A stretch of DNA of 24,099 bases from a virus: positions 1-24,099 of IMG/VR virus record IMGVR_UViG_3300046532_002947. One strand, given 5' to 3'. Every line of letters starts with the position of its first letter. Positions within the stretch are counted from its first letter, which is position 1. A program made the position numbers and the translations under genes. The notes beneath the pieces were generated by a model, which saw only the letters and a list, made by a program, of their open reading frames with translations, did no database searches and had not been told where the DNA came from. This document shows positions 1,063-20,400 of this stretch, one piece after another.

Positions 1063-4000
1063 ATGGCTAATTCACAATTTTTAGAATATCAGGACAAAGA
1101 TAATTCCGGACTTCTCGATGCATGCGATGAATTAGCTAATGTTCCAGAACAAAAAATATGTCCTCCGTGTCAGAAAAATATAAATTATATTGTTCCCGAT
1201 TGGAAAACTAAAGATGTTGATGAACCTTGGCTGAATGAAAAGACATGTCAATATCAGATCACAATTGTGACTCAGGAATCTTCTTTAATTCCCATTGCCG
1301 ACGCGACCGACGACGAAGCAAACGAACATATACAAGCGATTTTTGATGAGCATAGAAGCGAAGCCATCGATGGTATTTTGGTTTATTTTGAAAAAGACAA
1401 CAGTGAAGACAACGTTTTATCTCTAAATGGTATAACAGAATACGAAAAATATGATCTTGATATCCGTCGAGGATCCCGAGTAAAACTATTATATTCAATA
1501 CCTTACGAAAATATATCCCTTATAAACGATGCGATAGATAGCGAATCCGACGAAGACGAAGAAGACGACCCCGCCAGCGCCGAGATTACAGTAACATATA
1601 ATGCAGCAGAGTTAAATTCTAATGTTTTAAAAGTAAGAAGAGCCCTCAATATGTATGGAACGTATTTAAAAGTTTTCCGTGCAACACAAAGAAGCAACAT
1701 CATATTCGAGGGTGAAAATAGAATTTTTAACTTAAAAAGGTATGGTGACAACGGAATCACGGGTACCGGTACTTTAGAAAAAGTTATTAAAGCCGTCGAT
1801 GGTTTTTTAAGCAAAAAAAAATATATCCTCCGCGGCGGTAAGTTTTCGGGAACAGGTTTAAATAAAGATATTGTAAATGAAATTGGATTTACATTTAGCG
1901 CCGAATATAAATTAAAGAAAATAACCATTACTACGCGAGATTGTGGTGACAAAGAAATCTCTTTTGGTCCAAAGAAAATTAAATCTTTGACAAAAAAGGG
2001 GGTTTTTAAAGATAAAACGGCGATGGGATATCTTTCAAAAATTGACGATATGGTAACTCAACTAACTGCGAGAGAACCTCCGGTTTGGACAGATTTTATT
2101 GTTGAACACACATATCCCACAGTCATTGTTTTAGAGAATTGGCCATTTGGAACAGATAGTTCTTTGGTTACAGCAGCCAGCTGTGTTGGTGATGCATTGG
2201 CTTCAGAAGCTAAACAGCTCGGCCAAGATATATTAGATATAGATTTCGATTTGGCTGATGCGGTTTTATACAATTTTAATAAAGTTTTGTGTAAATCGGA
2301 TTTGGACGAAGTTGAAAAGGAGGCCACTAGTCTTGGCTTAAGTTATGATCCGAGCGAGAATAATTTATCTACAATTACTGCCCTTGCTAAAGTTCAAGCA
2401 AATAAACAATTTGATATATCCGATGGTGTTTTCGGAGACTTATGCGCAAAAGTATTAGGCTTGGGTGACGAAAAAGATGCTGAACCATCTGACACTAAAA
2501 GCGCCCTATCCGATATGCTTGGTACATTAAAACTTTGTGGTCTCAAAGACGTTTTAATAGAAACCACAAACTGTCTATTAGGGGGGCTTTCCTTCGAAGT
2601 ATCTTTGGGCGCCATATTAAAGTCGGCGCTACAAAATATGTCTATTATAAATTTTGGAAAAATGATCAATCTCTTGCCACCTGAAGACAAGGTTGCAGTA
2701 CAAAGTTTAGTCCGTGCAAAATTAAATTCTGGTAATATTTTTGATGAATCATCAGTCAATCAAGAAATAAGCGATTATATTAAAAATGGTGTCGACCCAG
2801 CCCAGATCACCAATATAGAACCATGGGGTGATAGAGAGTTTTTACAGCAAGCTAAAGAAGCCGCCCAAGGTTCACTAAATTCACTAAAAAATTCAACAAA
2901 ACAGATTTCTAGCATAAAGAATAATAATAATGTAAAAACATTAGCTCAAAGATTTGGAGAAAGCCAAAATTCCCCAAAACAAGCGACTGGTCTCATAATA
3001 ACACTTTATGTAGAATCAATTATCGAACATTTCGCCGAGGATCTTTTTAGTGTTTTAGAGGTGTTGAATAGGTTTCCAGGATCCCAGCTCATAGCTAAAT
3101 TGATTCTTTTAAGTGATTGTCCGCAGCCTCCCCTTTTTAGTCCATCGGTCTTAGATTTTGTTAGAGACATAGAATTACCCTTTTGCAAAGGAATAGATGA
3201 TATCACATTGCCGATTATAAGGAATCCTTTAAGCTGGATCCCAGCAAAAAATGATATAACGGGTATTATGTTTACTCAAGTTACATTAAAGCTGCAAAAC
3301 ATATTTGTTTCTGTATTGGCGCGATTAATGGTTAAAGTTTGTAATTTAATAGGAAACTCATTATGCCAAACATTAAAATCAACTGGCCAAATTTTAGGCT
3401 CTTGGGGCGACTTAAATAATAGAGACGCCATCGCCGATATAATTAGAGAATCGATATGCGGCCCAGATGCCAACGCTGACCAAGTTAACGCAACTATACT
3501 TGATATGTTTGAAAAATTAGGCTTGGGTGCTGCCGCATTGGCGGATACAGAAAAGTTATTACAGTTTACTGGAGATATGTCTGCCTCGTTAACAAGAGGC
3601 GAGATGATGAATATGTTTTTGGGCACCCCGACCTCGGAATCTTTAATTATAATGGATCAAATCATAGAATATGAATATCCAGAATATAGAGATGCACTCC
3701 CCGATGAAAGCGCAATCGCTGATTTTACTACAAATATGGGCAATTTGCTGCCAGCCGAATCCCGAACATCGATGCAAAATTTCTTAGATAATTTGGGTGA
3801 TGAAGATAACTTTCCAGCCGATCCCTCAATTTGTGCAACACCGGCAGACTTAGAAAATTTTGGTGATTATAGATGCTCCCTCCTCGAAGGGCGCGCGACT
3901 CAAAAACAATGTCAACAAATGGATACGTCTCAACAAAATGATTTATTAGAAAAACTTGAAGATATCACGAATGCTCTTCAACAAAATCCTAGTGAGTTGA

Positions 4001-7000
4001 TCGCTAATTCAATGCCACCGATTTTGTCAGATCCAGGGTGCCAGAATGGGTTGGTACCATTCGAACCAGAAGTAGTAACAACTGTAAAGAATAAAGCTCT
4101 TGGAATGACTTTAAAGCAAGTGTTTATGGATTTTTCAACTGATATGTTAGGAAATGGCCCCGGAGAAAAGAACTGGGGTCTCTTAAACATGATCTTAAGC
4201 GATACATTGGGAACGCCATTAACTAGTCATTATAGAAGGTCTTTCAACAGAAAGAACTATGTTGATTTTGTTACGATTACCGACCCCGCCCAGCAAGAGG
4301 GCCAGTTCCCACTTTATATAGCAGAATGGATGCGATATCAAATGCGGGGATTAGACACAACATTTAACACTAACAATGAATTCGCCGATAAAAAAACAAT
4401 AACTAAGACATTCCAAGAATTGGGTCTAAGTTTATACGGAGGGATTGATACACTTACACTACCCGATTTTGGATATGAAACCAACGCGGTAGTCAAATAT
4501 ACAGACCAAACAGTTGATTTTATTAGAGAAGGCAGAAAAGCTACGCCTGATATAGAATTACAATTTAGGGATAATAATAAAGGTAAAGTCTTTTGGGAAG
4601 ATTCAACTTATCTTTACGGCTTTAATATGAAGCTATTCTTGTCTGAAATGAAAGAAGAGAAAACGTTTGAAGGTATACTTGCGGTGAACAACCTTCCTGC
4701 AGATACCGCACGTATCAACATTACTAATCTTTTAAATTTTGGCGCAGATATTACTCGGGCTGACACAAAATCAATGAACACCGAGGAGAAAACAGCATCT
4801 CGCCAGAGAACTCCGTCAATTCAAAAAGAGAGGGAGTTTGAGTTTTTGGCAGTCGATGACACCTTCGATTTGTTATCTTTAGATAATTACCCAGATTTTC
4901 AGAAAAGCTTTAATACAAAATCTAATTATACTCCTCAGCTCGTTTTGCTTCATGAAATGTTGACTCAACAAGGTTATGGAGGAACGCTTGAAGACCTTAA
5001 AGGCTTTTATAATGATACGTTAGATATAGTATTCGCAAAAATAGTAGAAGAAATATCCGATAATGAAAATGCATTTTTGTATGGCGCCACATATGATAAT
5101 TTAACCGAAGAAGATGGAGAGTATGTGGTTCAAGCCGGCCAAACCGATAGCCCTGGAGGCACCCTGTATAGTGACGCGACACTTAATGGCGAATCTCTCA
5201 CAAATGATGATGCAGTATTAGGAATCAGTAGGAATCAATATGAAGCTGTGAATACAGAAGATATAAGAATTTTTTATCTTGACCCGGCACAATTTGGAGG
5301 AAACTATGTTAACCCTCCTCTTTATATGAAGCCTTTGCAAAACGAGGGTTGGTTAGGCTTAATAGACATAATATTCCCCGAACTTAGCCCTTGTAAACCC
5401 TCTAAAACTGATTTAATTGATTTTGGTGAGATAGACGAGCAAGTTGAAGAAACATATAATAATATCCCAGCCGACGAAAGGTTAAAATTTGATTCTGATT
5501 GTGCCGTTGAATTGCCATATAATAGAATTTTAGAGAGATACAGTGCCGCAGGAATTCAAGGGGTGATCACGGCAGCTTGTAGAATTTATGCAAGTGTCCA
5601 TTTCATTAAAACAATGGCAGCGTTTACTATCTTTAAACCTGATTTTGATAACGTATACAGTTCAATATACCCACAATATATTGTTGAAAATATAGAAGCC
5701 GCGTTTAAAGATGTTCAGAGCGCATTTTGGGAAAGACTTAATCCATTTAAAGACGAGGAATTTTGGTATTCCTTTTTAGAACAAGCCGTACAAACTTACG
5801 GAAGATTAATAGATGAAGGTAAGATAATTGATCCTCCGGATTCAGTTTTAAACGCTATTAATAAAATTAATACGATGCAAGCAAATTATAAATATCCCAC
5901 CAAAGAAGAGTGGAAGAATTCACAAAACTTGGGAAGCGATCTTGGAAAAGCCGCCGCCGCTGCTATTATGGGCGCCGCACTTCCTATTCCCGGCGCCGGC
6001 GCTGCAGCATCCATAAAGGTATTTGCAGATAATTTTGAAACATACAAGCAATATAAAGAAAGATTAAATTTTGAAGCGATTAAAGCAACCGAAGACGAGG
6101 CTAAAATTGTATTGAAAGAAATGGTTAAGACCGAGCTTCAATATATGGCTGATAAATTTATTGAAAACCTAGAGGCGATCAATATTACTCCCAAGTATAC
6201 TGATATCGATTATTTTATATTGACGCAATTTACAAATGGCGGTATCGATTTAGATTTAGATAAAGAAATTGTTGCTGTTATGGAAGAAGAGCCGAGCGGC
6301 CCATCGTATGGAACAACTTCTAAAGTAGCTAATCATTCTCATGCATACGAAGTTGATATAGAAGGAAATGGTTGGGCTTATACCGCTTATTCTCCAATAG
6401 ATTCGAGAATAAAGCACAAGCACCAAGTAATCAGCTGGGAACTTCAAGCTTCACAGTCTGATTGTTATCCGGCATGTAAAGACATTTATGGAAATGATGG
6501 GGTGGGCCCCCACATACACAATATTAGTAGAATGATCATACCGATTGGCGATGTTGAGTCATATAATTATGAACCATCATACGAACAAGTCTCCAGTACT
6601 GCTAGTGCAGCGATTGATATCGCGAAAGAAGCGATCAATATAGCAGAAGCTGCTGTAGCGGCTAGCCCTCTAGACACGACATTGCAGGCGGCATTAGACA
6701 CTGCAATTTCCGTTTTTGAGCAAGTGTTAGTAACTTTTGGCATTGATATAGAAGAATTATTTAGTTCGAAAAAGCCCTTTGTTATAGAAAAATATATTAG
6801 TATTAATGGCACAAAATATGGAACAGAAGAAGGCTCTGAGATTATTAAATTAAACTCGCCAACGCTCAATATCTCTGATGTTTATCCTGGAACCTTAGAA
6901 ATCGTTTATGCTTTAGGTGATATTTCTCAAGAGGCATCTAGATCTGCTGCAACGCGCGAAGAGCCTACTGATGAGCCTGTGGGGATTAAAGGAGAACTAG

Positions 7001-7689
7001 GAGTGCGTCATGGTTTACAGTTTTCCGCTCTTGTTGACGGTCAGAAGTTTGAAATAACATCTGTTGAAATAGACGCTTTAGATTATGAGATTCAGGCTTT
7101 TGTTCCAGTTCAGGCAAATTCAAAAGAATTACTATGTTTATTAAAAATATTGAAAGAAGATGAGAAATTTAAGCTAGCGGCCCGTTATATTGTTCCTACA
7201 AGTAAGCTATTATCTCTGGCGGCTATTTACAATGATATGGCTTTTTTACCTTCTATCGGCGAAGTAACTGTAGAGACCGGAGAGTATGAAGGCTCCGGTG
7301 TAGAATTTGATGTAAAGCCCGGTATGAAAATTACGTTTGTTGATGGAATTCCTGATTATTCTTCTAGCAAGGAAGGCTGGGCATCAGCAGAAGATAGAAG
7401 CCCTGGCTTTTTACAAGGCCTCGGGGTTCTTGAATGGGATAATTGGGATCAAGAACTTTTAAGAAACTCTAAAGCAAGAATTAAATCCTTGTTTAGAGGA
7501 TTCTATAATTCAAGAGATTTTGAGTCCAATTTTGAATCTATGTTTGACTTTGATCCAGTTGAATTTACTATTAATGAGCTTAAAGGAAAAATCCGCCCAA
7601 ATCTAGCTAAAGCGATACTCCCCAGATGGCGCCGCAAGAAAACTAGAACTAATCCGTTTGATTCTTCAGGCGAATTGTGTAAAAAATAA
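1063..7689 (+). CDS. Giant phage structural protein with HxH/Cys putative metal-binding module (2208 aa)
   Basis: This is a single uninterrupted frame of 2208 codons, presumably a large baseplate or tail protein. The N-terminus has four cysteines (21, 33, 36, 62), including CPPC at 33-36. A strongly acidic linker runs from 156 to 170. Residues 175-400 look like a compact alpha/beta unit. Residues 480-900 are mainly helical, with hydrophobic helices around 650-720 and 745-790. Residues 1627-1654 form an Ala/Gly-rich hydrophobic segment with no acidic residue, followed by a charged, probably coiled-coil helix to about 1715. Residues 1758-1819 contain HSH, HKH, a CYPAC pair and HIH. Residues 1847-1900 form an Ala-rich helix. 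It directly precedes the gp25-like gene. No catalytic motif was seen. Its length far exceeds any T4 wedge protein (gp7 and gp10 are about 1030 and 600 residues). Structural function is an inference from operon context; the metal-binding idea is an inference from the HxH pattern. Confidence 0.65.
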   Translation: MANSQFLEYQDKDNSGLLDACDELANVPEQKICPPCQKNINYIVPDWKTKDVDEPWLNEKTCQYQITIVTQESSLIPIADATDDEANEHIQAIFDEHRSEAIDGILVYFEKDNSEDNVLSLNGITEYEKYDLDIRRGSRVKLLYSIPYENISLINDAIDSESDEDEEDDPASAEITVTYNAAELNSNVLKVRRALNMYGTYLKVFRATQRSNIIFEGENRIFNLKRYGDNGITGTGTLEKVIKAVDGFLSKKKYILRGGKFSGTGLNKDIVNEIGFTFSAEYKLKKITITTRDCGDKEISFGPKKIKSLTKKGVFKDKTAMGYLSKIDDMVTQLTAREPPVWTDFIVEHTYPTVIVLENWPFGTDSSLVTAASCVGDALASEAKQLGQDILDIDFDLADAVLYNFNKVLCKSDLDEVEKEATSLGLSYDPSENNLSTITALAKVQANKQFDISDGVFGDLCAKVLGLGDEKDAEPSDTKSALSDMLGTLKLCGLKDVLIETTNCLLGGLSFEVSLGAILKSALQNMSIINFGKMINLLPPEDKVAVQSLVRAKLNSGNIFDESSVNQEISDYIKNGVDPAQITNIEPWGDREFLQQAKEAAQGSLNSLKNSTKQISSIKNNNNVKTLAQRFGESQNSPKQATGLIITLYVESIIEHFAEDLFSVLEVLNRFPGSQLIAKLILLSDCPQPPLFSPSVLDFVRDIELPFCKGIDDITLPIIRNPLSWIPAKNDITGIMFTQVTLKLQNIFVSVLARLMVKVCNLIGNSLCQTLKSTGQILGSWGDLNNRDAIADIIRESICGPDANADQVNATILDMFEKLGLGAAALADTEKLLQFTGDMSASLTRGEMMNMFLGTPTSESLIIMDQIIEYEYPEYRDALPDESAIADFTTNMGNLLPAESRTSMQNFLDNLGDEDNFPADPSICATPADLENFGDYRCSLLEGRATQKQCQQMDTSQQNDLLEKLEDITNALQQNPSELIANSMPPILSDPGCQNGLVPFEPEVVTTVKNKALGMTLKQVFMDFSTDMLGNGPGEKNWGLLNMILSDTLGTPLTSHYRRSFNRKNYVDFVTITDPAQQEGQFPLYIAEWMRYQMRGLDTTFNTNNEFADKKTITKTFQELGLSLYGGIDTLTLPDFGYETNAVVKYTDQTVDFIREGRKATPDIELQFRDNNKGKVFWEDSTYLYGFNMKLFLSEMKEEKTFEGILAVNNLPADTARINITNLLNFGADITRADTKSMNTEEKTASRQRTPSIQKEREFEFLAVDDTFDLLSLDNYPDFQKSFNTKSNYTPQLVLLHEMLTQQGYGGTLEDLKGFYNDTLDIVFAKIVEEISDNENAFLYGATYDNLTEEDGEYVVQAGQTDSPGGTLYSDATLNGESLTNDDAVLGISRNQYEAVNTEDIRIFYLDPAQFGGNYVNPPLYMKPLQNEGWLGLIDIIFPELSPCKPSKTDLIDFGEIDEQVEETYNNIPADERLKFDSDCAVELPYNRILERYSAAGIQGVITAACRIYASVHFIKTMAAFTIFKPDFDNVYSSIYPQYIVENIEAAFKDVQSAFWERLNPFKDEEFWYSFLEQAVQTYGRLIDEGKIIDPPDSVLNAINKINTMQANYKYPTKEEWKNSQNLGSDLGKAAAAAIMGAALPIPGAGAAASIKVFADNFETYKQYKERLNFEAIKATEDEAKIVLKEMVKTELQYMADKFIENLEAINITPKYTDIDYFILTQFTNGGIDLDLDKEIVAVMEEEPSGPSYGTTSKVANHSHAYEVDIEGNGWAYTAYSPIDSRIKHKHQVISWELQASQSDCYPACKDIYGNDGVGPHIHNISRMIIPIGDVESYNYEPSYEQVSSTASAAIDIAKEAINIAEAAVAASPLDTTLQAALDTAISVFEQVLVTFGIDIEELFSSKKPFVIEKYISINGTKYGTEEGSEIIKLNSPTLNISDVYPGTLEIVYALGDISQEASRSAATREEPTDEPVGIKGELGVRHGLQFSALVDGQKFEITSVEIDALDYEIQAFVPVQANSKELLCLLKILKEDEKFKLAARYIVPTSKLLSLAAIYNDMAFLPSIGEVTVETGEYEGSGVEFDVKPGMKITFVDGIPDYSSSKEGWASAEDRSPGFLQGLGVLEWDNWDQELLRNSKARIKSLFRGFYNSRDFESNFESMFDFDPVEFTINELKGKIRPNLAKAILPRWRRKKTRTNPFDSSGELCKK
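6331..6519 (+). other. HxH/CxxxC module within the 2208-residue protein
   Basis: Within 63 residues there are three His-x-His pairs (1758-1760, 1785-1787, 1817-1819) and a Cys-x3-Cys pair (1801, 1805). Repeated HxH motifs coordinate iron in the tip of the T4 long tail fibre protein gp37. This module is not an obvious homologue of that tip, so metal binding here is an inference. I recall similar histidine/cysteine blocks in structural proteins of marine phages, which would point to a conserved domain. Confidence 0.5.
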
Positions 7690-7720: not shown

Positions 7721-8086
7721 ATGTCTTCTATCGGAATAAAATTACCAATCACATATGACGCCGGCGATGGGTTCACCATGATCACCACTATTCGTCAGAT
7801 GGTAAAGCAAAATTTAAAAATGTTGATCCTGACTAATCCCGGTGAAAGAGTTATGGAACCCAACTTTGGAGTTGGAATTAAAAGGCTTTTATTCCTGAAT
7901 TATACTGAAAATGTTTCAGGCAAAATTCAAACCAGACTAAATAAACAAGTTCAATTATATCTCCCTATTGTCACTATAGAAGACTTGCAATTTGATTCTT
8001 CTCCAGACACTAACTCTATACGTGTAGTTTTAACTTATCAAATTCCAGACATTGGCATTAACGATTTGTTAGAAATAACTATTTAA
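7721..8086 (+). CDS. gp25: gp25-like baseplate wedge protein (121 aa)
   Basis: This is a member of the GPW/gp25 family (IraD/Gp25-like fold), a small conserved component of the baseplate wedge in contractile-tailed phages and related injection systems. In T4, gp25 sits at the wedge-sheath interface with gp6 and gp53 and helps initiate sheath assembly. The 121 residues match the usual length (T4 gp25 is 132). The diagnostic motif NPGERVMEPNFGVGIKR is at residues 39-55, followed by a hydrophobic LLFLN strand, and the C-terminus has the expected strand pattern ending in LLEITI. An amphipathic helix at about 21-36 precedes the motif. The neighbour directly downstream is gp6-like, the canonical partner. 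Phage gp25 and its relatives in type VI secretion or tailocins are hard to separate by sequence. The jumbo structural genes around it favour a phage. Confidence 0.93.
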   Translation: MSSIGIKLPITYDAGDGFTMITTIRQMVKQNLKMLILTNPGERVMEPNFGVGIKRLLFLNYTENVSGKIQTRLNKQVQLYLPIVTIEDLQFDSSPDTNSIRVVLTYQIPDIGINDLLEITI

Positions 8087-8106: not shown

Positions 8107-9903
8107 ATGCCCAAAAATGACAAGAAGATTATACCAATAAATTATACTAATAGAGAATTTGACTCGATTAGGGATGATCTACAACAGATTGCAGAAAGAT
8201 TCTATCCTGATACTTTTCAAGATTTTAGTGAAGCATCTTTCGGATCTTTAATGCTTGATGCTGTGGCCTATGTTGGAGATCAGTTATCATTTTATTTAGA
8301 CTATAATGTTAACGAATCGTTTTTAGATACTTCATATAGCCTAAAAAACATCACTCGGCACGGAAGGATCCTTGGATATAAAAATCCAGGTCGACCATCG
8401 ACATATGGGGAAGTGGCAATATTTGTAGAAATTCCAGCTGATGCTACCGGCCTCGGCCCCGATCTAAATTACATTCCAATTTTGAAAAGGGGCAGCCGAT
8501 TTAAATCGAAGCAAGGTCTTAATTTTATTTTAACTGAAAATGTTGATCTTAATCAACCGCAGAATCCTATTATTGTGTCAAAGATAAGTGATGCAACAGG
8601 CGCCCCAACTCATTATGCCATAAAAGCTTATGGAAATGTTGTATCAGGAAGGTTCGGCCAGCAGCAGATTACGATGGGAGCTTATGAAAAATATAAAAGA
8701 ATATCTCTTAAATCAAATAATATTTCAGAAGTCATTTCAGTAACTGATACAGAGGGCAATAAATATTTTGAAGTAGAAAACCTCTCTCAAGATATTGTAT
8801 ATCAGGAAATACCTAATAATAACTTTAAAAACGACAATGTTCCTTCTGTCATTAAACCGATGCTAGTTTCTAGAAAATTTATTGTTGTAAGAGATGGAGA
8901 CGTTGTTTCTCTTCAATTTGGTAGCGGCGAACAATCAACTACTGAAATTATAGCAGAGCCTCAAGCTGTAGCTCTTGATATCTTCGGAAAGGATTATGTA
9001 ACTAATACCACATTTGATCCGACAAGATTATCAAAGAATACAAATTATGGAATAGTGCCGGTCAATACTAAGCTTACTGTAGCTTATAGAGCGACAAACC
9101 CAATGAATTCTAATTCAGCAGTGGGCTCTATTAATTCAGTAGCCTCTCCGATTGTAGAATTTAAAAATAGAGAAAGTCTCTCTACTTCAACTATCAATAC
9201 TGTGGTTACCTCGATCGAGGCCACCAACGAAAAACCAATTGTTGGAGATGTTTCTTATCCCTCGTCAGGGGAAGTGAAACAAAGAATTTTTGATACATTT
9301 CCGACACAAAACAGAGCTGTAACTCAAGCAGATTATGAAAACATTGCGTATAGAATGCCGGCAAAATTTGGTTCTATTAAAAAATGTTCGGTGCAAAAAG
9401 ACCCGGATTCTCTTAAAAGAAACTTAAATATGTATGTAATTTCTGAAGATTCGTTTGAAAAATTAATACAAACTAATGCGGCTATTAAAAATAATTTAAA
9501 AACATGGCTAAATCAATATAGAATGGTTAATGACACTATAGATATCTTAGATCCTTTTATTGTTAATTTGGGAGTTGAATTTATAATTACTACAATGCCA
9601 GCCGCAAATGCAGATGGAGTACTCGCAAATGCAGTTAGAGCGTTGCAAGATTATTATGCTGACAGCTTTTATATTGGAGAGCACTTCCAAATAAGTAATA
9701 TATATTCAGAACTCAAAAAGTTAACTAATGTTTTAGATGTAACAAGTGTTAAAATCTTTAACAAAACTGGTGCTCAATATTCTAATGTCCGATTTTCAAT
9801 AAATAAGAATTTCTCACCTGATGGTAGCCAATTGACCTGTCCAAAAAATGCGATATTTGAAGTTAAATTCCCCGGTGTTGATATCAAGGGTAAGATTAAA
9901 TAA
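8107..9903 (+). CDS. gp6: gp6/baseplate J-like wedge protein (598 aa)
   Basis: This is a baseplate wedge protein of the gp6/gpJ (Baseplate_J) family. In T4, gp6 dimerises between wedges and forms the inner ring that holds the hub. The N-terminus carries the typical pattern of an early helix with FDSIRDDL (18-25), then SEASFGSLMLDAVAYVGDQL (41-60) and an SFYLDYNVNESFLDT stretch (61-75). These are the helices that precede the beta domain in this family. The classical J-family signature follows the middle domain as NRAVTQADYENIAYRMP at about 402-418. The C-terminus is an alpha/beta domain, as in other members. The length is close to T4 gp6 (660). It lies 20 bases after the gp25-like gene and shares one base with the next gene (TAATG). 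The family assignment is firm. Whether it is closer to gp6 or to P2 gpJ needs structure comparison. Confidence 0.9.
   Translation: MPKNDKKIIPINYTNREFDSIRDDLQQIAERFYPDTFQDFSEASFGSLMLDAVAYVGDQLSFYLDYNVNESFLDTSYSLKNITRHGRILGYKNPGRPSTYGEVAIFVEIPADATGLGPDLNYIPILKRGSRFKSKQGLNFILTENVDLNQPQNPIIVSKISDATGAPTHYAIKAYGNVVSGRFGQQQITMGAYEKYKRISLKSNNISEVISVTDTEGNKYFEVENLSQDIVYQEIPNNNFKNDNVPSVIKPMLVSRKFIVVRDGDVVSLQFGSGEQSTTEIIAEPQAVALDIFGKDYVTNTTFDPTRLSKNTNYGIVPVNTKLTVAYRATNPMNSNSAVGSINSVASPIVEFKNRESLSTSTINTVVTSIEATNEKPIVGDVSYPSSGEVKQRIFDTFPTQNRAVTQADYENIAYRMPAKFGSIKKCSVQKDPDSLKRNLNMYVISEDSFEKLIQTNAAIKNNLKTWLNQYRMVNDTIDILDPFIVNLGVEFIITTMPAANADGVLANAVRALQDYYADSFYIGEHFQISNIYSELKKLTNVLDVTSVKIFNKTGAQYSNVRFSINKNFSPDGSQLTCPKNAIFEVKFPGVDIKGKIK
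9886..9890 (+). promoter_or_regulatory. Ribosome-binding site inside the gp6-like gene
   Basis: AAGGG lies 12 bases before the ATG at 9903. That start shares its A with the preceding TAA (TAATG), so re-initiation by terminating ribosomes is likely. Confidence 0.45.
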
Positions 9904-11471
9904 TGTTGATTAGATATACAGCAAGCGCTGATAACACAATTGTCAATGCCTTTCAATTAGACTTAAAAACACGTGGCACTGGCGCTAATGCCGGCGCCTC
10001 CGATGTGTTAGAGACATTCTCAATATATGGAAGAGAAACAACTAGCTCCCAAGAATTATCGAGAATTTTAATTAAATTTCCGGTAACAGATATTAGCACA
10101 GACAGAACTAACGGTGTTATTCCAGCTAGCGGATCCACAAGTTTTTATCTTAAAGTGTATAACGCCCCTCATTCTAGAACGACGCCTAGAGACTATACGT
10201 TAAACGTTTTGCCTATAGCGCAAGAATGGGAAGAGGGTGATGGTTTAGATCTGGAAGGATATAAAGATCTAACGAGAGGGGATGTGGGTTCTAATTGGGT
10301 GAGTGCATCAAGCACTTCACCTTGGACGGGCAGCAATTACACAACAAATGATTCAGTTGGTGCCTCTTATCGAACCGGTTCAGCCGATCCGCAGTTTAAG
10401 CCCACATTTGCTATAGGAACGGAAAATTTAGAATTGGATATTACTCCCTTAGTAGAACATTGGATCGCTGGCACAATATCAAATTATGGTATGGGGATCC
10501 ATCTTTCATCTAGTTATGAAGCCCTCGCCACCGTCGCCAATAATACCACTAATGCTATGGTATTGCCGATTACTGGTGGAGCGGTAGAATCTTATTATAC
10601 AAAGAGATTTTTTGGTCGTAATACCGAATTTTTCTTTCGCCGGCCTGTAATTGAAGCGAGATGGGACTCTACAACAAAAGATGATAGAGGTAATTTCTAT
10701 TTTAGTAGTTCTCGGGCCCCTGCAGCAGACAATGTAAATATCATATATTTTTATAACATTATCAGAGGACAACTCGTAAATCTTCCAGATGTAGGATTGG
10801 GAGAAGTTGTTGTTAGCTTATTTTCAGGATCTGCTAATAACTCGGTTCCTTCTGCCTCCGCCTTAACTCTTTGTAATTCTACTATTATAGCTACAGGTGG
10901 ATATGTTTCAACGGGAATTTATTCTTGTTCGGTTTGCATGCCATCCGCTACTTTAGACACAGTATATGATGTTTGGTTTAAGCCAGACGATACAATTGCA
11001 ACCGCACAATCGTCATCGACACAATATTTCACAGGCGCCATAGAACCAATGTTCTATGATTCTGGATATTCTGTTACATTTCCTACTTATTATTTGTCTG
11101 TTACCAATCTACAGACAAGATATTTAAGCACCGAAACCGCAAGAATGAATTTGTTTATTAGAGAGAAGAATTGGAGTCCGAATATTTATACAGTTGCTAA
11201 CTCTAATATAGAATCTCAAACGATAGTCAGTGCCTCCTATCGCGTATATCGAATTCTTGATGGATATGAAGCTGTTCAATACGGAACTGGTAGTGATCTG
11301 CACACCGCATTATCCTACGATATATCTGGAAGCTATTTTGATCTAGATATGAATTTATTAGAGCCCGGTTATGCTTATGGACTGAAATTTGCATTTTATG
11401 ATAATAGCGTAAGTTCGTGGCAAGAACAAAAAGAATCTTTTAAATTCAGAGTAGAGAGTTATGAGTATTAA
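9903..11471 (+). CDS. Beta-rich baseplate-associated protein with DNRLRE-like N-terminal module (522 aa)
   Basis: The first 260 residues follow the layout of DNRLRE/CBM-type jelly rolls found in adhesive surface proteins. There is an opening ASADNTIVNAF strand (7-17). An SRILIKFPVTDIS strand (53-65) follows, like the usual 'rsllrFdl' strand. Next come an SFYLKVYNAP strand (80-89), an IAQEWEEGDGLD loop with the family-typical Trp (105-116), and later a VEHWIAG segment. The second half is a chain of Ser/Thr-rich beta strands. It ends in REKNWSPNIYTVANSN (420-435) and a beta sandwich with YFDLDMNLLEPGY. From memory, that C-terminal pattern recurs in marine phage structural proteins. Binding of a glycan or another virion protein is an inference. 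The gene is coupled to the gp6-like gene (TAATG) and to the 3286-residue gene (11-base overlap), suggesting stoichiometric assembly in the same wedge. It could occupy the place of T4 gp8, but I see no direct similarity. Confidence 0.6.
   Translation: MLIRYTASADNTIVNAFQLDLKTRGTGANAGASDVLETFSIYGRETTSSQELSRILIKFPVTDISTDRTNGVIPASGSTSFYLKVYNAPHSRTTPRDYTLNVLPIAQEWEEGDGLDLEGYKDLTRGDVGSNWVSASSTSPWTGSNYTTNDSVGASYRTGSADPQFKPTFAIGTENLELDITPLVEHWIAGTISNYGMGIHLSSSYEALATVANNTTNAMVLPITGGAVESYYTKRFFGRNTEFFFRRPVIEARWDSTTKDDRGNFYFSSSRAPAADNVNIIYFYNIIRGQLVNLPDVGLGEVVVSLFSGSANNSVPSASALTLCNSTIIATGGYVSTGIYSCSVCMPSATLDTVYDVWFKPDDTIATAQSSSTQYFTGAIEPMFYDSGYSVTFPTYYLSVTNLQTRYLSTETARMNLFIREKNWSPNIYTVANSNIESQTIVSASYRVYRILDGYEAVQYGTGSDLHTALSYDISGSYFDLDMNLLEPGYAYGLKFAFYDNSVSSWQEQKESFKFRVESYEY
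11453..11458 (+). promoter_or_regulatory. Ribosome-binding site of the 3286-residue gene, inside the upstream gene
   Basis: AGAGAG ends 2 bases before the ATG at 11461, so the effective spacing from AGAG is only about 4. The start overlaps the upstream stop by 11 bases (ATGAGTATTAA). Confidence 0.4.
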
Positions 11472-14400
11472 AAAACTATTTGATTCCGCAAACAAAAATA
11501 CAAACTTTAGTGATTATGCAAGTGACAAAGACAAATACGAATTTGTAGAATCGTCTCGCAATGCAGAACAAATAATAACGAAGAATGATACATTCGTTCC
11601 TCAAATCGACTATTCCGATCCTAAAAACTTTGTTAAGTTTGGATCTGCCTATTATTTTTATAAAGGCGCCCTCGCAAGAATTTCTGAATATTATCCTTAT
11701 GATGGCTCAGATGCTGAAAAGAATAAATTTTACAATGGGTTGTTAGAGGGAGAAAAGTATATCTTTGACTCTCTATACCCAAGCAGCACTGGTTATGCGC
11801 TTTTATCAGCTGATGGTTGGGGGTCACTGAACGGCTCAAAAACATGGGATGGATATGGGCTTCCCTCTTCTTTAGAATATATTACATTCAAAGGGGGTCC
11901 CCTTACTTCCTCTGGCGATTCTTTGGTCGCTCAGAGTTCAAATCCTGATGATGACAAGATTCACTTCTCAAATATTTATGATGAGAATCTTTATCAGACC
12001 GCAGGCCTTCCTGACGATTATGGAAAGGGCACCAGATTATCAAATCTAAGATCTGATTTTAATAATGGAGTGACTGTCGAATTTTGGTTAAAAAAGGCAG
12101 CCTTTGATACCGATTTAACCGAAAAAGAAGTTGTTGTAGATGTTTGGAATAACTATGTTAGTTCAAGCGCTCACTATGGTAGAATCACAATCGAATTGGA
12201 TGGCGCCGCTAGCGCATCTCCGTTCATAATAACTGCACATTCTGGTAACGTATCTGGATCAATTGTTACATCTAGCATCGGTGCAGATTTAACAGTAGCC
12301 TCGTTAGAAGATTGGGGCCACTATTCATTTTCATTCCACAACACTGGAAGCAATTTCACTGTAAAACTATATCAGGACGGAGTTCTTAATGATACCAACA
12401 CATATACCGGTAATATAAACGAATTAAATTCAAAAGGTATGATGGGCCGCGTTGGAGCGCTTTTAACCGCTCCATCCGGCGCCGCCGATACTACACTAAC
12501 TTCATCATATATCGGCGCCGGAAAACTTAGTGCGTCTTTAGACGAGTTCCGATTCTGGAAAACAACAAGAAACTCCCAGCAAATCAGTAGAAATTGGTTT
12601 ACTGATGTAAACGGCGGTGTTAATACCGATATTTCAAATACTACATTAGGACTTTATTATAAGTTTAATGAAGGTATAGTTGGTTCTAGCAGTGTCGATA
12701 GCATCGTTTTGGATTATGGCGGGCGCCTTAGTAATGGTGTCTGGACTGGATATGATACTCATAGTAGAAATACAGGGTCAGCGATGGTGTCTGCTTCCGC
12801 TGCTTTATATGAGCCAGAAGATCCAATTGTTAGAACAAATAATGCAGAATATTTAAATTTAAGCTCTTCGTTAATGGCGTCAGGAACTTTTCACGATCTT
12901 AATAATCAATCATCTTTCATAAATTACGCACCTAGTTGGATCCTTGAAGAGCATGAAAACAATGGGAATACAAACCTTAAATTAATTTCTCATATAATGG
13001 GAACATATTTTGATAGGTTGTATCTCTTGACCAGAGAGGTCCCCAAATTAAGACAAGCAGATTATGTTACCGCATCAATAGCGCCTATACCTTTTGCTCG
13101 ACATCTGCCACAATCGCTTGGAATGTATATGGCTCCAACTTTTGTAGATTCGACGATAATGGAAAGACTGTTAGACAGAAACGACACCAAATTATTCGAG
13201 TCTAATTTAGAAGACACCAAAAATTTAATTTATCTAAATTTATATAATAATTTAACACATATCTTTAAGTCTAAGGGGACAGAGAAAGCAATTAGTAATG
13301 TTTTAAGGTGTTTTAATCTAGACGATTCCCTTCTTCAATTCAAACAATACGCAAGCAATACAACCTATAAAATCAAAAATAACCTTATTCAGAAAAAGGT
13401 AAAAAAGAATTTTGTTAACTTTAACACAGCTAGTAATATACAAGGAGTTGTATACCAAGCAGTCGATTCTTCAAACGCAGATAGTAGCGGATATATCTCA
13501 GGATCTGTCAATAGCGATGATGACGGAATAGAAAATTGTTATGGGGCAACAATAGAAGCGGAGATCCAATTTCCGTTTTATTTAAAGAGAAATACTAATG
13601 TAAGCCGAGATCATACTAATATTTCCCTGTTTGGAATGTATACGACACATACAGCCAGCGCTGCATCATTAAACGGCACGGATACAACGTTTGTTAGCTC
13701 AAGCAACGATTATGCTAACTTTCAGGTATTTGCGATTAGAGATGCGGTTAAGTCTAAAAATGTATATTTTAAATTAACCTCATCAAACATACCGTATCCG
13801 TTACCACAATTAACAAGTAGTACGTTTTTTGAAGTCTATAATAATACCGACTGGAATTTCTCAGTAAGGCTAAAGCCTTCAAATTACCCTCTCTCTGGTT
13901 TAGTTTCTGGATCCCAAGACTATACATACGATGTAATTTTTAAGGGCACCAACACCGAACTAGGAGCCGTAGTCAATAGCTTTGAATCTACTGGATCGAT
14001 CACTTATACATCTGGCTCCAACTTCTTAAAATATCCTAAGAGAATGTATGTCGGAGCCCGCAGAGAGAATATAACTGGAACTATTTTACAAACCTCCGAC
14101 GTCTTAGCTGCCAGCGCAAAATATTGGACAAAGTATTTAGATGACGAATCACTGTTACAACACTCAAATGATTTTTTCAACAGCGGTATTTCAGGATCTT
14201 ATCAAAATATATCTCCATTACAGTTGAGCAGCTCTGCTTTAGATTTGATCAATTTAAACACATTAGCACTTGATTGGAACTTTCAGCAAATAACCGCCTC
14301 CGATGGAGCAGGAAACTTTACTGCTCAAGATTTCAGCTCCGGTTCTGCGCTTATAAGAGACAATTATGGTTGGCTCGGATCGATTAGTGGATATCAGCAC

Positions 14401-17400
14401 ACTGGTTATGGATATGGATTCGGAGCATCGAATACTAATGTTGTCAACAAGAAAGACATTAACATTTTTGAATTTGTTGATCCAGAACAAGCTGTATCCT
14501 CTGAAATGATTAAAATTCTAAATGAGGATGATAAAGTATTTGAGCTTATCGAAACCGTACCTAGCTATCTTTTCACTTTAGAAAAGAGCATGCAGGCTGC
14601 AATATCGTCAGAGATGCTGAAATTCTTTGCAGGAATTATTGATTTTAATAACGTTATTGGAGATCCAGTAAATCGATATAGAAGCAGATATAAGAATTTA
14701 GAGAAGCTCCGAGAGATTTTCTTCCGCAGAGTTACAAAAACTTCTGATGTTGAAAAATTTATTGATTATTATAAGTGGTTTGACAGCGCTATTTCGTCTA
14801 TTGTTTCCCAATTAGTGCCGGCCTCAGCAGATTTTATCGAAGATGCGATGAATATAATCGAGCCTCACGTCCTTGAGAGAGATAAATATCAAACTAAATT
14901 TCCTACATTAGAATTTCAAGAGCCAACGATTGAAGGAACGGTTAAATCAATTGGTGAAAAGCTTTATGACTGGGAACTTGGATCGAGCACAATACCTTCT
15001 AGTCCTCGTAATACCACAAAGCATATGCTATTCTGGAAAAATCGAGCTAAGAGAGATTCGGTAGACATTACATCTGGTGATTCTGTTATCGATTCACAAA
15101 GGGAAACCATAAGACAGATATCTATTACTAGACCATTTATAAGCAGTTCATTACCTAGACTAAACACTGTAGACGGAGCAGCTTATCAGCCCAGCGCATA
15201 TTCTAGAAGAAGATTCCAAAAGCTCTATAACGATGATACAGAAATAAGTCTGACAATTCAAGGCGGTGTTAACTTCCCTGAATCAAAAAACATTGAGCTA
15301 ACTTATAATGCACTAGCGCCTGCAGGTCCTGTCAATACAGAAGGAGACGCCTTCGTTCCGCGAAATGTTTTAGTAGCATTTATGGAAGATATGGTACAGC
15401 AGCCCATCGATAATGATCCTAAGCTAATTTATAAGAAAAACAGAAGAAGCGTTAAAGTTCTTCATGGCCGTGATTACGAAGATGGCGTCGGATATAAGAA
15501 TATTAAATCAAATACCATCTTTCCGTTTAATCTTATCTCTTCAAGCGTAAGTGGAGGTTATCAATCTGAAGTTATGGCTCAGGTTTCAGGCTCAGTTATG
15601 ATCACGAATCTTCATAACGATGTATACGGCCCACGAATGGAAAAACCAATGCAAGGGCCTTTTACTGAATATGCAGTCGGTGGCCACCAATCTCGCCATA
15701 TTCGCTTAAATCCTGGCACCGATACATGGTATGACAGACCGGAAGCGTGGAAGATTCTTCTTGGAACTTGTCTTGACAGCACAACCACTTTGGAAGATTC
15801 TGGCGCCATTGGTATGGTCGGAGCCGATTATCCCTTCCCAGAAGCTAATGATGACGGCGCCACCCCTTATCCGATGACTGCATCTCAAAAGGCAGTTTAT
15901 TATCGCGATATGGTTGCAAAGCGCCCAGTAAATATTAGAAATATTAGGCATACAACTGGTTCAACGATTCTTGGAAATTATAATAATAATTATGATGTTG
16001 TAAGCACATTCGGCGCCTACTCTAATCCACGAAACTTCATCGAAAACCAGCCGACATTACCTCCACAGGTCATTCAAAATAATATGACGAGTTCTACATC
16101 GGTTAGGACTTTTCTAGACATCAGAAGGGATAATGACAACCATACATCTTCTGTTGGCGAGTATTCCACAGCTTATTTAAAGCCCGGCCTCTTAAGTGGA
16201 TCTTTAGCTGATGTTAGCGGCTCCGGAGCAAATAATATAAAAAATAGAAATGTTATATCGACAAGATTCTCCGCTCCTGGTGGAATTGAAGTTATGACCC
16301 CGGGATATACTGATTTTAGAGCTGATGAATTCTCAGTGTATAACTCACTTAACTATAGAAACTTATCTGTACGAGGTATTTTTCAAGCATCTGGTTTGCC
16401 ATCTGGTTCATCTGGGTCGGTTGATCGTCCTCCGACCGGATCCGGGGGCACAACCGCTATTAAAGTGAACGATATTCACAATAAAGCTTTTGCGATTCGT
16501 TCTCATCTTGCGAGACACACTGCAAGATTTGGAAGAGACTCATTATTCGTTACTGGAACTTCTCCCGCTTATGAAAATACTGAAAACCAAGGCGGCCCGG
16601 GCGCCAGTTATGATCAGTTCCCGAGCATGTTTAAGATCCATCGCAATAGAATTGATGTTCTGAGACTTAATTCATCGTCTGTCGCGTATTCTTCTTCAAT
16701 TTATGATAATTATTTTGTCTCACAACAGATACCAAAGTCTACTATAAATTACTCGTGGATTAAAGCATCTTATGTTTCGTTCAACGATCGTTATGGTTTT
16801 GTCAGACCAGATTTTCGAATTAGTTCGTCTACTGAAGGTATGATTGACTGCATCGATTTTGTGACTGCAAGCGATTTTGTATCTTATAGAAGTCCCGGCG
16901 GCAGAGGGTTTGGTAAAGATGCTCAATATTCACCGTCTGATTCCATTCCGACTGATTTTGTTGGATTAAATACTAATATAATTGATCAAGTATTAACATC
17001 GTCCGCCACTCTTGGGGACTCGCTTGATTTAACAACATACCTTAACTATGAAATCAATCCGCTATTAAATTCTGAAGGCACAGCAAGCGCGCTAAATGCT
17101 TTAATATTAAATCGCCAAGGTCCATATGGGCATCCTTCTTGGAAACAAGTTCGACAGAGGGACAATAAAATATTGAGATCATATAGAAATAACAATAGAG
17201 TACATTTTGTTTCTTCAACCGGATCTTACAATAGTCAAGCTGATTTTGAGATGCCACCGGTCTCATTGCGAGGAAGAGCGCTTACGATTGCGATCGAAGA
17301 TTTCAATACGCAGGTTGCAATAGAAGGTTTAGAAGAGCAATTCGAAGAATCGGGCCTCTTTGGTACAAATCTATTACAAACTTACAAAGCAGACTTTAGC

Positions 17401-20400
17401 AACGATTACGTTTATTTTAATTTAGATAAGTTTGAAGATCAATTTGATTTGAATTATTCTGGTAGAACGACCGCCGCCGAGCAACTGATTCAGATTGGGA
17501 ACTCGGATGGGTTTGCGTTGGACTGGATACTTTATACTGAAAACATTTTCCCATCACAAAGAAATGAATTCTTATCACAATCCAGAAATAAGGTTGGTTA
17601 TAATAACAAATATTGGAGAGATTCAAATGCCGATCGAGTAACTCTCGGTGATACCTTTAACAATACTCAAAATCTAGATGTATCTCAAAGCGCCTGGGTA
17701 TTAGACGCCCCACTCGACTTTCTGACAAGAACTACATCGGTGTTTGCTACAGAAGAAGCCACCCCATCGAATACACCCGCAGAATTAAGAAATCTTAGAG
17801 ATTCGTTAAGAATTTCAGCATCGTCAGGCGAACTGCAAAATACGTATTTTACATATTTTACATGCAGTAGTATCGGTGTTGGTGCAGAATTAACAGAACG
17901 AGAAAAAGGCGCAGTATTGACCCCCGGGGCTCTATATGCTAGAAAACACCTAATATCTAGTCCCCGCTCTGTAACAACTCCATCTGGAATGGAGTGGGCA
18001 TTAACTGGCGCCAATACAGGCCCATTTGATTCTAGCGCACAAATTCAAATATATGCTGGTGAAGCGCTCTGGGAGCCTGGACCAAAAGCCGGCATAATCC
18101 GCGCAAATCCGGCGGCGACGGACTTCGCGACCTTTGGGACAGTACCGTGGGAAATATTTGAATCACATCAATCAAGTCCGTGGTTTAACTCGTATGATGA
18201 CTTCAATTATTTGATTAAAAAAGTTAGTAATGCAAAAGAATTCGCTATTGTACCCGAATATAGAAGTAGTGAACACGCAGAAGATTATATAACGTTTGGT
18301 AAATTTATTGAAGATAAACATAATTCATTTTCAATTCCTGAAACCGCTATTAGTAGTTCAAACGATGATTTTTATATTGATTATTCTAATTCTGAATTCT
18401 TAAAAGAGTTTCTAAATATTAATGATTTAGCGTCACAAAGTTTACAAGCGACGGAGATACGTTTAGTTTGTAGTGGTACCATCAGATTTAATCCATATAA
18501 GAGTTTTTATCCCGCACAAAGAGCAACCGACTTGGTAGAAAGATTTTATAAATCGTATTCTCAACCTAGTGGTTCTTCTTATGCCACTGGATCATGGGGA
18601 AATACCTTTTATGGCAATGGAATATCTGGTTCTATGATTAAACCTCTATACCAGTCGTTATTCGCTCCCGGAATTTTGTTTAACACGATTAAGTCCGGCC
18701 TTGCGGTTGACTGGCCAGTTGTGACTGATTATAGCAAAGTGCAAAGAACACAATATGGCGATGATACAACCACAAGCCCCAATAACTGGGCTGTAACTGC
18801 TGATCCTTCTAAATTTGCAACCACCGCATCTTTCTGGGACAAGCGGTTAAGTTTTGAATCAATAATCTATCCCGAACAACACCTAAATGATATTAAATTT
18901 TTTGATATGGACACGCATCCGAGCGCGTCAGTATCGTCAAGTTATACTTTTAATCACGATGGAGATCCATTATATTCTGCTATGGCTTCTAATTTCTTTG
19001 GTGGTGTAGCTGATTTTTATCTTAAAGACTCAAGCTTCACATCTTTAAAATCTAAAGTAGTTGACGCAGTAATAGTTGATAATACTAAAGTTTATATGGC
19101 CAGAGTTAAATTGCGCAGAAGCATGACTGGACCAAGAGATTATAGCAATGAATATGCTGCAACAAATACTGGATGGTCCAATAACGCATTTGGAGCCGGT
19201 GGTGGGCATTTATTGGTTACTGCATCAGGGGGAACTGCCTTTGATTATGATACAACAGCAGCAACCTTTCCACTTCCCCAAGATCCAATGAGATGCACCG
19301 GAAGTTCTACTTTAGATCCATACCGCGAAACTTTTACTATGTATAGTAGGCCTTCAGCTTTTGGCCCAGCGCTCGCTGGCATCTCGGCAAACGGTCAGGC
19401 GACCGTTAGCAAATATCTAGATAATACAGTATATGATAGCTTTAACGGCTTCAACCCTGCATACACACCGCCATATTATAATGGAGAGGCGTGGTGCGAC
19501 ATTATTTTCAGACCTACTGGTTCTGGGGGATCTGCGCGCATAACAATAGAAGAGCTTATTCAACAATCAAATTATGTATATTGGAGAATGGATCCTGGGT
19601 ATGCTTCGTCAAGTATTACTGATCTTACAACTTTCCCGGCGACCGAAAGAAAATATAGGACATCTTTAATATATGATGATAGTATTGACGGCAAACAAGC
19701 AGCACTTTATGAAGGTCCGTTTATTAATGAAAATTCTATGCAAATTTCTGCTAGCATCGATTTGTTTGGAGTTGAATCATCGCCTCAGTTACAAACAAAT
19801 CTCAGTACGAAAGAGAGTCTTGCTACAAATATATCGGCTGGTACAAGATGGGTGATTTCACCTAAATTTGAAACCCCCATGTTAAACTTTAACGATTTAT
19901 CATCTGTTAGAGCTTTAACTAGTTCTGAAGTTTCGTTGCCTACAAGTTTTGGACGAGCATCAACTCCCCGCGGAATGTGGCACCAATTTGGAATCATCGA
20001 ACCGGATAGCTCTAAGGGTATCTTCTTAGAAATTGGAGATATGCCGGTAGACTGGTTATCACATCATTATGACGTTAGAGTAAATGATACTGTATATAAT
20101 GATAACGATGCAGCTAATAATGGCCCTTCGCTTAGCAAAGATACTGAATCGTTGTCGGATTTGGTAGGATTTTCCACAAGTCCTAGTAGAAAATTGGGTG
20201 AATTGAAAGATAATCTGACCGTTTACGAGGCTGTTGTAGCAATACCATATGTAATTGAAACTATAGAACCATCACTTAGAAGAGATGTATCGCTTACTGA
20301 AGCAGCCAAAGACTATAAGAAATTTATTAGTATACCAAGAGAAAGATACGAAGCCGCCCTAACTTCTTCAATAGGAACTGCCACTGGAGATTCTTTGGAT

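Follow-up and report, generated by a model that had tools for sequence, protein, structure and literature searches.

Whether a few dozen residues inside a giant phage structural protein can form a metal-binding domain of their own, and how such a domain would relate to the iron sites already known in phage fibres, is the question raised by a 24,099-base virus fragment, referred to here as the window (the whole stretch of DNA that was analysed), in which three His-x-His (HxH) pairs and a CYPAC motif lie close together in a 2208-residue protein. Marine phage genomes often contain HxH stretches, and the HxH iron sites known to us all lie within trimeric spikes and fibres. The octahedral iron site of the pyocin fibre is built from six histidines, with each of the three chains contributing two, and T4 gp37, P2 gpV and phi92 contain this HxH motif as well (PMC6116203). 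A stabilising role of iron has been proposed for the Sf14 spike (PMC11821841), and in the tail fibre of the marine Alteromonas phage R22Y six spaced HxH motifs, likewise with proposed iron, are distributed along a trimeric protein; for HxH fibres there is also the Ferrojan hypothesis (PMC11705849).

The module in the window and its gene neighbourhood

The stretch 6331-6519 of the window, inside the open reading frame 1063..7689, translates as NHSHAYEVDIEGNGWAYTAYSPIDSRIKHKHQVISWELQASQSDCYPACKDIYGNDGVGPHIH and corresponds to residues 1757-1819 of the giant. All three HxH pairs and the CYPAC are contained in residues 1758-1819, HSHAYEVDIEGNGWAYTAYSPIDSRIKHKHQVISWELQASQSDCYPACKDIYGNDGVGPHIH, as the first-pass annotation had observed, apart from a trivial off-by-one in the length (62 residues). 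The giant has 14 histidines in total, six of them in the module, and the module's three HxH are its only ones; three HxH anywhere were obtained in none of 2000 shuffles of the giant's sequence, and the cluster of three HxH and CYPAC is far beyond chance. The features of the locus, all on the plus strand, are as follows.

1063..7689, + strand: second gene of the window, encoding the giant structural protein of 2208 aa that carries the module (ORF and translation)
6316..6540, + strand: module in its long form (about 75 aa), residues 1752-1826 (alignments A1, A3, A4 and A6; homologue alignment; tree)
6334..6342, + strand: HxH-1 (H1758-S-H1760), invariant in A4 and A6
6364..6372, + strand: GNG turn (G1768-N-G1770), after HxHxYxVDxx, conserved in A4; GNG belongs to the scan pattern given below, and its conservation in A6 is partly due to that selection
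6415..6423, + strand: HxH-2 (H1785-K-H1787), within a predicted strand (alignments A4 and A6; AF2)
6463..6477, + strand: optional Cys pair CYPAC (C1801 and C1805; residues 1801-1805), in the long-form subfamily only
6511..6519, + strand: HxH-3 (H1817-I-H1819), invariant in A4 and A6
7721..8086, + strand: gp25-like baseplate wedge gene (PF04965, E 6.1e-12; phrog_261, E 7e-19)
8107..9903, + strand: gp6-like baseplate wedge gene (phrog_6, E 7e-19)
11461..21321, + strand: second giant of 3286 aa, whose putative relative in L095 has the module at its C-terminus

The window's copy conforms to the general definition of the module, with exactly three HxH (at 1758, 1785 and 1817) and the GNG (1768-1770) after the first. 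The gp25-like and gp6-like genes directly downstream of the 2208-aa giant support the baseplate-operon setting that had been assigned to the locus; after them come two genes that include the 3286-aa giant, and then structural-looking genes. The gp6-like protein shares 28-31% identity with those of Microcystis phage Mel-JY01 and Flavobacterium phage immuto, and within 30 kb around gp25/gp6 these two cultured relatives have neither the giant nor the module. The 2208-aa giant itself gave no meaningful match to a Pfam or PHROG family and none to GenBank phages, and at least 118 stretches of IMG/VR hold relatives of it.

The giant also contains 26 Cys (residues 21, 36, 62, 294, 410, 686, 760, 924, 993, 1444, 1480, 2025 and 2206, among others), of which about 20 are kept in nearly all homologues covering the position, including an N-terminal CPPC. 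Such a Cys content is unusual for a phage structural protein, and the conserved residues could be metal knuckles or disulfides.

Definition and conservation of the module

Across its carriers, the module has the architecture HxHxY-x-(V/I)-D-xx-GNG-(n)-HxHxI-x-N-xx-V-(n)-HxHx(I/L) and a length of about 41-75 aa, with the 41-aa short form represented by L125. A scan of IMG/VR DNA with the pattern HxHxYx.DxxGNG, which specifies the first HxH and the GNG turn only, returned at least 119 stretches. At least three HxH lie within 110 aa in 62 of the 64 distinct sequences obtained, with exactly three in 59; the two exceptions are L139, a frameshift-broken copy, and L135, whose match was judged unrelated. 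The 91 other HxH in long reading frames of the same loci are accompanied by no further HxH in 84 cases, by one in six and by two in a single case.

The six His are invariant in alignments A4 (36 rows) and A6 (55 rows), over many carriers, and the only further invariant columns, one Gly in both alignments and one Asp in A6, are partly fixed by the scan pattern. Moreover, CAT and CAC codons are mixed, and both common, at each of the six positions, which indicates that the invariance is selected and does not just reflect recent ancestry. Of the six His and two Cys whose invariance in homologues had been raised as a check, the His are invariant, but the Cys pair is optional.

The same DNA pattern occurs in 22 stretches of bacterial and archaeal genomes (257 Gb), none of which holds an intact module. 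A related piece, with the protein sequence HYH..HYHKYKVDEEGNG..HEHEI, is found at L253 3727-3915, on a short contig that is binned as Methanohalobium, has phage-like small ORFs and is perhaps viral. Near position 2160 of L098/L139, a frameshift interrupts the module in a copy of the 684-aa carrier; since L091 has an intact, near-identical copy, the probable cause is an error of sequencing or assembly.

Carriers and sites

The idea that the module is peculiar to the baseplate giant did not hold. Family searches, run on ten carriers from the pattern scan, assign the L121 carrier to a prohead-protease/capsid fusion (phrog_80, E 4e-39; PF04586 and PF05065) and the L193 and L185 carriers to P22-like portals (phrog_156, E 1e-20), with a weaker portal match for the L125 carrier; one carrier protein is hub-adjacent. 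Further carriers are a 370-aa protein (L089, L097) with a C-terminal copy, a 660-684-aa protein (L090-L094) with a copy close to its C-terminus and, in L096, an apparently related protein, so judged by eye, with an N-terminal copy. In L095 it occupies the C-terminus of a protein judged, from shared sequence and gene order, to be related to the window's 3286-aa giant, and the same phage keeps another module, called module b below, in its 2208-aa homologue. A 51-member blastp carrier cluster, in which shared module and flank sequence probably brings dissimilar proteins together, was excluded from the counts of carrier types.

Within the giant's own family, the module is found at three sites, namely that of the window, a second near residue 1200 in L182 and L186, both of which have module b at the window's site, and a third downstream of the window's site in distant homologues of about 2500 aa. 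Among 16 large records with a clear match, all of them fragments chosen for holding the module, 15 have one copy and one, of 255 kb, has three. In this last record, G018 (L137), a 2353-aa protein holds two of the copies and a 2412-aa protein the third.

Searches of GenBank phages by tblastn with the long and short forms gave nothing significant. LR745208.1 (L103), from a 485-kb uncultured phage, appeared at E = 8 and then at a profile E of 5e-8 in a small set, and by its profile match it holds a real distant member of the module. Its HYH...HTH...HVH, without Cys, occupies about residues 209-258 of a 1764-aa protein encoded on the reverse strand by the ORF from 5386. A match to Vibrio phage K251 (E 0.9) was taken as chance. 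At about 2466-4700 on the minus strand, L151 has reading frames that resemble, by eye, a terminase interrupted by an intein containing a GIY-YIG-like portion.

Judged from these sequences, the module has moved between unrelated virion proteins of the tail, portal and capsid-protease types. It is proposed that virion proteins can accept it within loops or terminally and keep their own fold.

Alternation with module b

At the window's site, the 80 aligned proteins (79 homologues and the window, the best 80 of at least 118 IMG/VR relatives) carry one of two modules between the same flanks: module a, the HxH/CYPxC form, in 15, and module b in 65. The 15 module-a rows keep the six His and both Cys, with two rows deviating only through alignment slippage. 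Module b follows the pattern YTxGxEL..GxxYxGYYHVHxDxxGxxxYMxGExH..H, has two invariant His and is represented by two homologues of window 6313-6558.

L016, 14350-14541: module b
L061, 14476-14667: module b

All 79 loci analysed for module b belong to the giant's own family, with none outside it, and module b was ruled out as a second nomad.

The tree of the flanks requires two changes between a and b, and a single clade of module a is rejected (p = 1.5e-90). Furthermore, the module a of the separate pair L056 and L060 is nearest to those of other carriers (51-56% identity with L095, 53-57% with L122 and, for L060, 57% with L127), and its identity with the window's clade does not exceed 51%. 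The tree and the affinities of L056/L060 imply two or more entries of the module into the window's site, with other proteins as the probable source; on this phylogenetic evidence, module a replaced module b there in two separate lineages.

Predicted structure and database comparisons

The AF2 model of the module (36 sequences, 101 residues folded) has a mean pLDDT of 80.8, with values of about 87-93 over residues 11-80, and contains three strands (22-25, 31-37 and 45-51), with a short helix following CYPAC; HxH-2 lies within strand 45-51, and His19 and His78 lie on single bridge residues. The module is thus confidently predicted to fold on its own. In a model of residues 1520-2208 of the giant (pLDDT 73), the module part is less confident, mostly at 50-70.

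Compared with PDB folds by Foldseek, the module model gave no match at E<=0.001 (best E>=1.7), and compared with BFVD none at E 0.001 (best A0A1B1IWS3, prob 0.94, E 0.28), while the module profile against PDB chains retrieved unrelated chains only, at E>=0.06. Short-query matches to scorpion toxin, cytochrome c and vicilin were dismissed as chance level. Pfam YmaF (PF12788, function unknown) gave weak matches to four of the 36 A4 members and to one portal carrier (best E 0.0015-0.0036); the L185 carrier scored 19.4 bits against a curated cut-off of 27 bits, and the window's copy had no match. Positions 119-183 of the 199 in phrog_15223 ('protease'), or 100-188 in L185, weakly match the module of two portal-type carriers at E 3e-4 to 7e-4. 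These similarities suggest that YmaF and phrog_15223 are distant relatives of the module and hint that the phage protease family phrog_15223 carries a relative of it. No curated Pfam or PDB family covering the module was found, nor was it described in the open literature searched, a partial library. Phage HxH metal sites as such are already known; what is added here is a defined, mobile, virus-restricted module without a curated Pfam entry.

Function and alternative readings

The most probable explanation is that the module is a self-folding mini-domain in which the three HxH of one chain form one six-His metal site, a reading to which a probability of roughly 0.55 can be given. The six invariant His very probably hold a metal ion; this binding, one site per chain, the identity of the metal and a benefit to the virion are inferred. 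With two His each, the three HxH would supply six His per chain, the ligand count of the octahedral iron site, and the module would fold around one metal ion, most likely iron and possibly zinc. The metal would then act as the cross-link of a mini-domain small enough for loops or ends of unrelated proteins, and the virion's gain, at a guess, would be stability or adhesion. Against a single site per chain, the six His could form two sites, or sites across chains.

By analogy, the module is best read as forming within a single chain what the HxH iron sites of T4 gp37, P2 gpV and the pyocin fibres form as trimers. With the T4 gp37 tip, P2 gpV, the phi92 spike and the R1/R2 pyocin fibre it shares the HxH, six His in an actual or proposed site and residence in virion proteins, and its HxH are likewise predicted on beta strands. 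It differs from gp37, gpV and pyocin in having three HxH in one chain of 41-75 aa with a GNG turn, in carriers that include portal and capsid-protease proteins, and in its position, the window's copy being internal and others lying in portal and protease-capsid proteins rather than at a spike apex or in a fibre needle; nor was homology of sequence (profile E>=0.06) or fold (Foldseek E>=1.7) detected. The R22Y fibre shares the HxH and the proposed iron, but PMC11705849 does not present its motifs as a movable unit with exactly three HxH.

An arrangement across chains, in which the module would trimerise as a short needle, each HxH forming a six-His iron site, with three metals per trimer as in the gp37 tip, has precedent in phage spikes and fibres, where the known HxH iron sites are formed by trimers (PMC6116203), and in the R22Y fibre model (PMC11705849). 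It is at odds with the monomer model, which is compact and confident and has three strands in succession and a conserved GNG turn, and with the near-constant number of three HxH, whereas needles differ (seven irons in gp37, six HxH in R22Y). Moreover, portals and protease-capsid fusions are, to our knowledge, not known as trimers, and these carriers indicate that the module is independent of a trimeric fibre. This inter-chain reading is considered unlikely.

A role without metal, in which the His-rich strands would offer a surface to which a partner from the host or the virion binds, or would act as a pH switch, draws some support from module b, which is unrelated, has only two invariant His and can occupy the same site of the giant. 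Since, however, the six His and almost nothing else are invariant across carriers, and HxH is a known phage metal motif (PMC6116203), such a role is quite doubtful.

A third alternative places the Cys pair in the metal centre, with the His and the CxxxC jointly forming one zinc or iron site. It is favoured by the invariance of CYPxC in the window's subfamily (15 of 15 rows), and is contradicted by the wider set: among 62 three-HxH modules, 43 lack Cys and keep all six His, 15 have two Cys, three have one and one has four, and such mostly even counts fit a local staple or disulfide better. In addition, the CxxxC is absent in L124, L128 and L142, and in L140, L166, L168 and L197 a Cys pair lies in a different loop. 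The CxxxC can thus no longer be regarded as part of the module core, as first supposed; a His/Cys zinc site including it was rejected for want of invariant Cys ligands, and the joint metal centre is very improbable. The Cys pair would instead serve as an optional extra that staples the loop joining HxH-2 to HxH-3.

Finally, the notion that iron displayed by the module on the tip of the tail mimics a siderophore complex and allows entry through a host iron receptor has in its favour the baseplate gene cluster of the window's carrier and the existence of the Ferrojan hypothesis for HxH fibres (PMC11705849), but occurrence in portals, in a protease-capsid precursor and internally at three sites of the giant, none of them a fibre tip, makes a purely receptor-tip role unlikely and leaves this reading with hardly any weight.

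Returning to the single-chain six-His site, the original suggestion of a metal-loaded structural domain of a different kind survives in its six invariant His and its confidently predicted self-fold, but not in the Cys pair or in a restriction to the baseplate. The complete picture, that of an unnamed, virus-restricted, nomadic mini-domain with a full six-His iron site in one chain, which has moved among baseplate, portal and capsid-protease proteins and usually occurs once per phage record, is put forward tentatively, at somewhat under even odds.

If this picture is true, many uncultivated phages would carry metal-loaded particles, whatever their tail type, and with a portable single-chain site in baseplates, portals and capsid-protease fusions, iron would be expected at other places on the virion than before. 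The idea of the phage as an iron ligand would gain a countable and testable sequence signature, in the form of a short HMM and a peptide of 41-75 aa. The module is also a clear example of how a very small domain moves among structural proteins that are not related to each other, and a single junction in one of these proteins has undergone replacement independently more than once.
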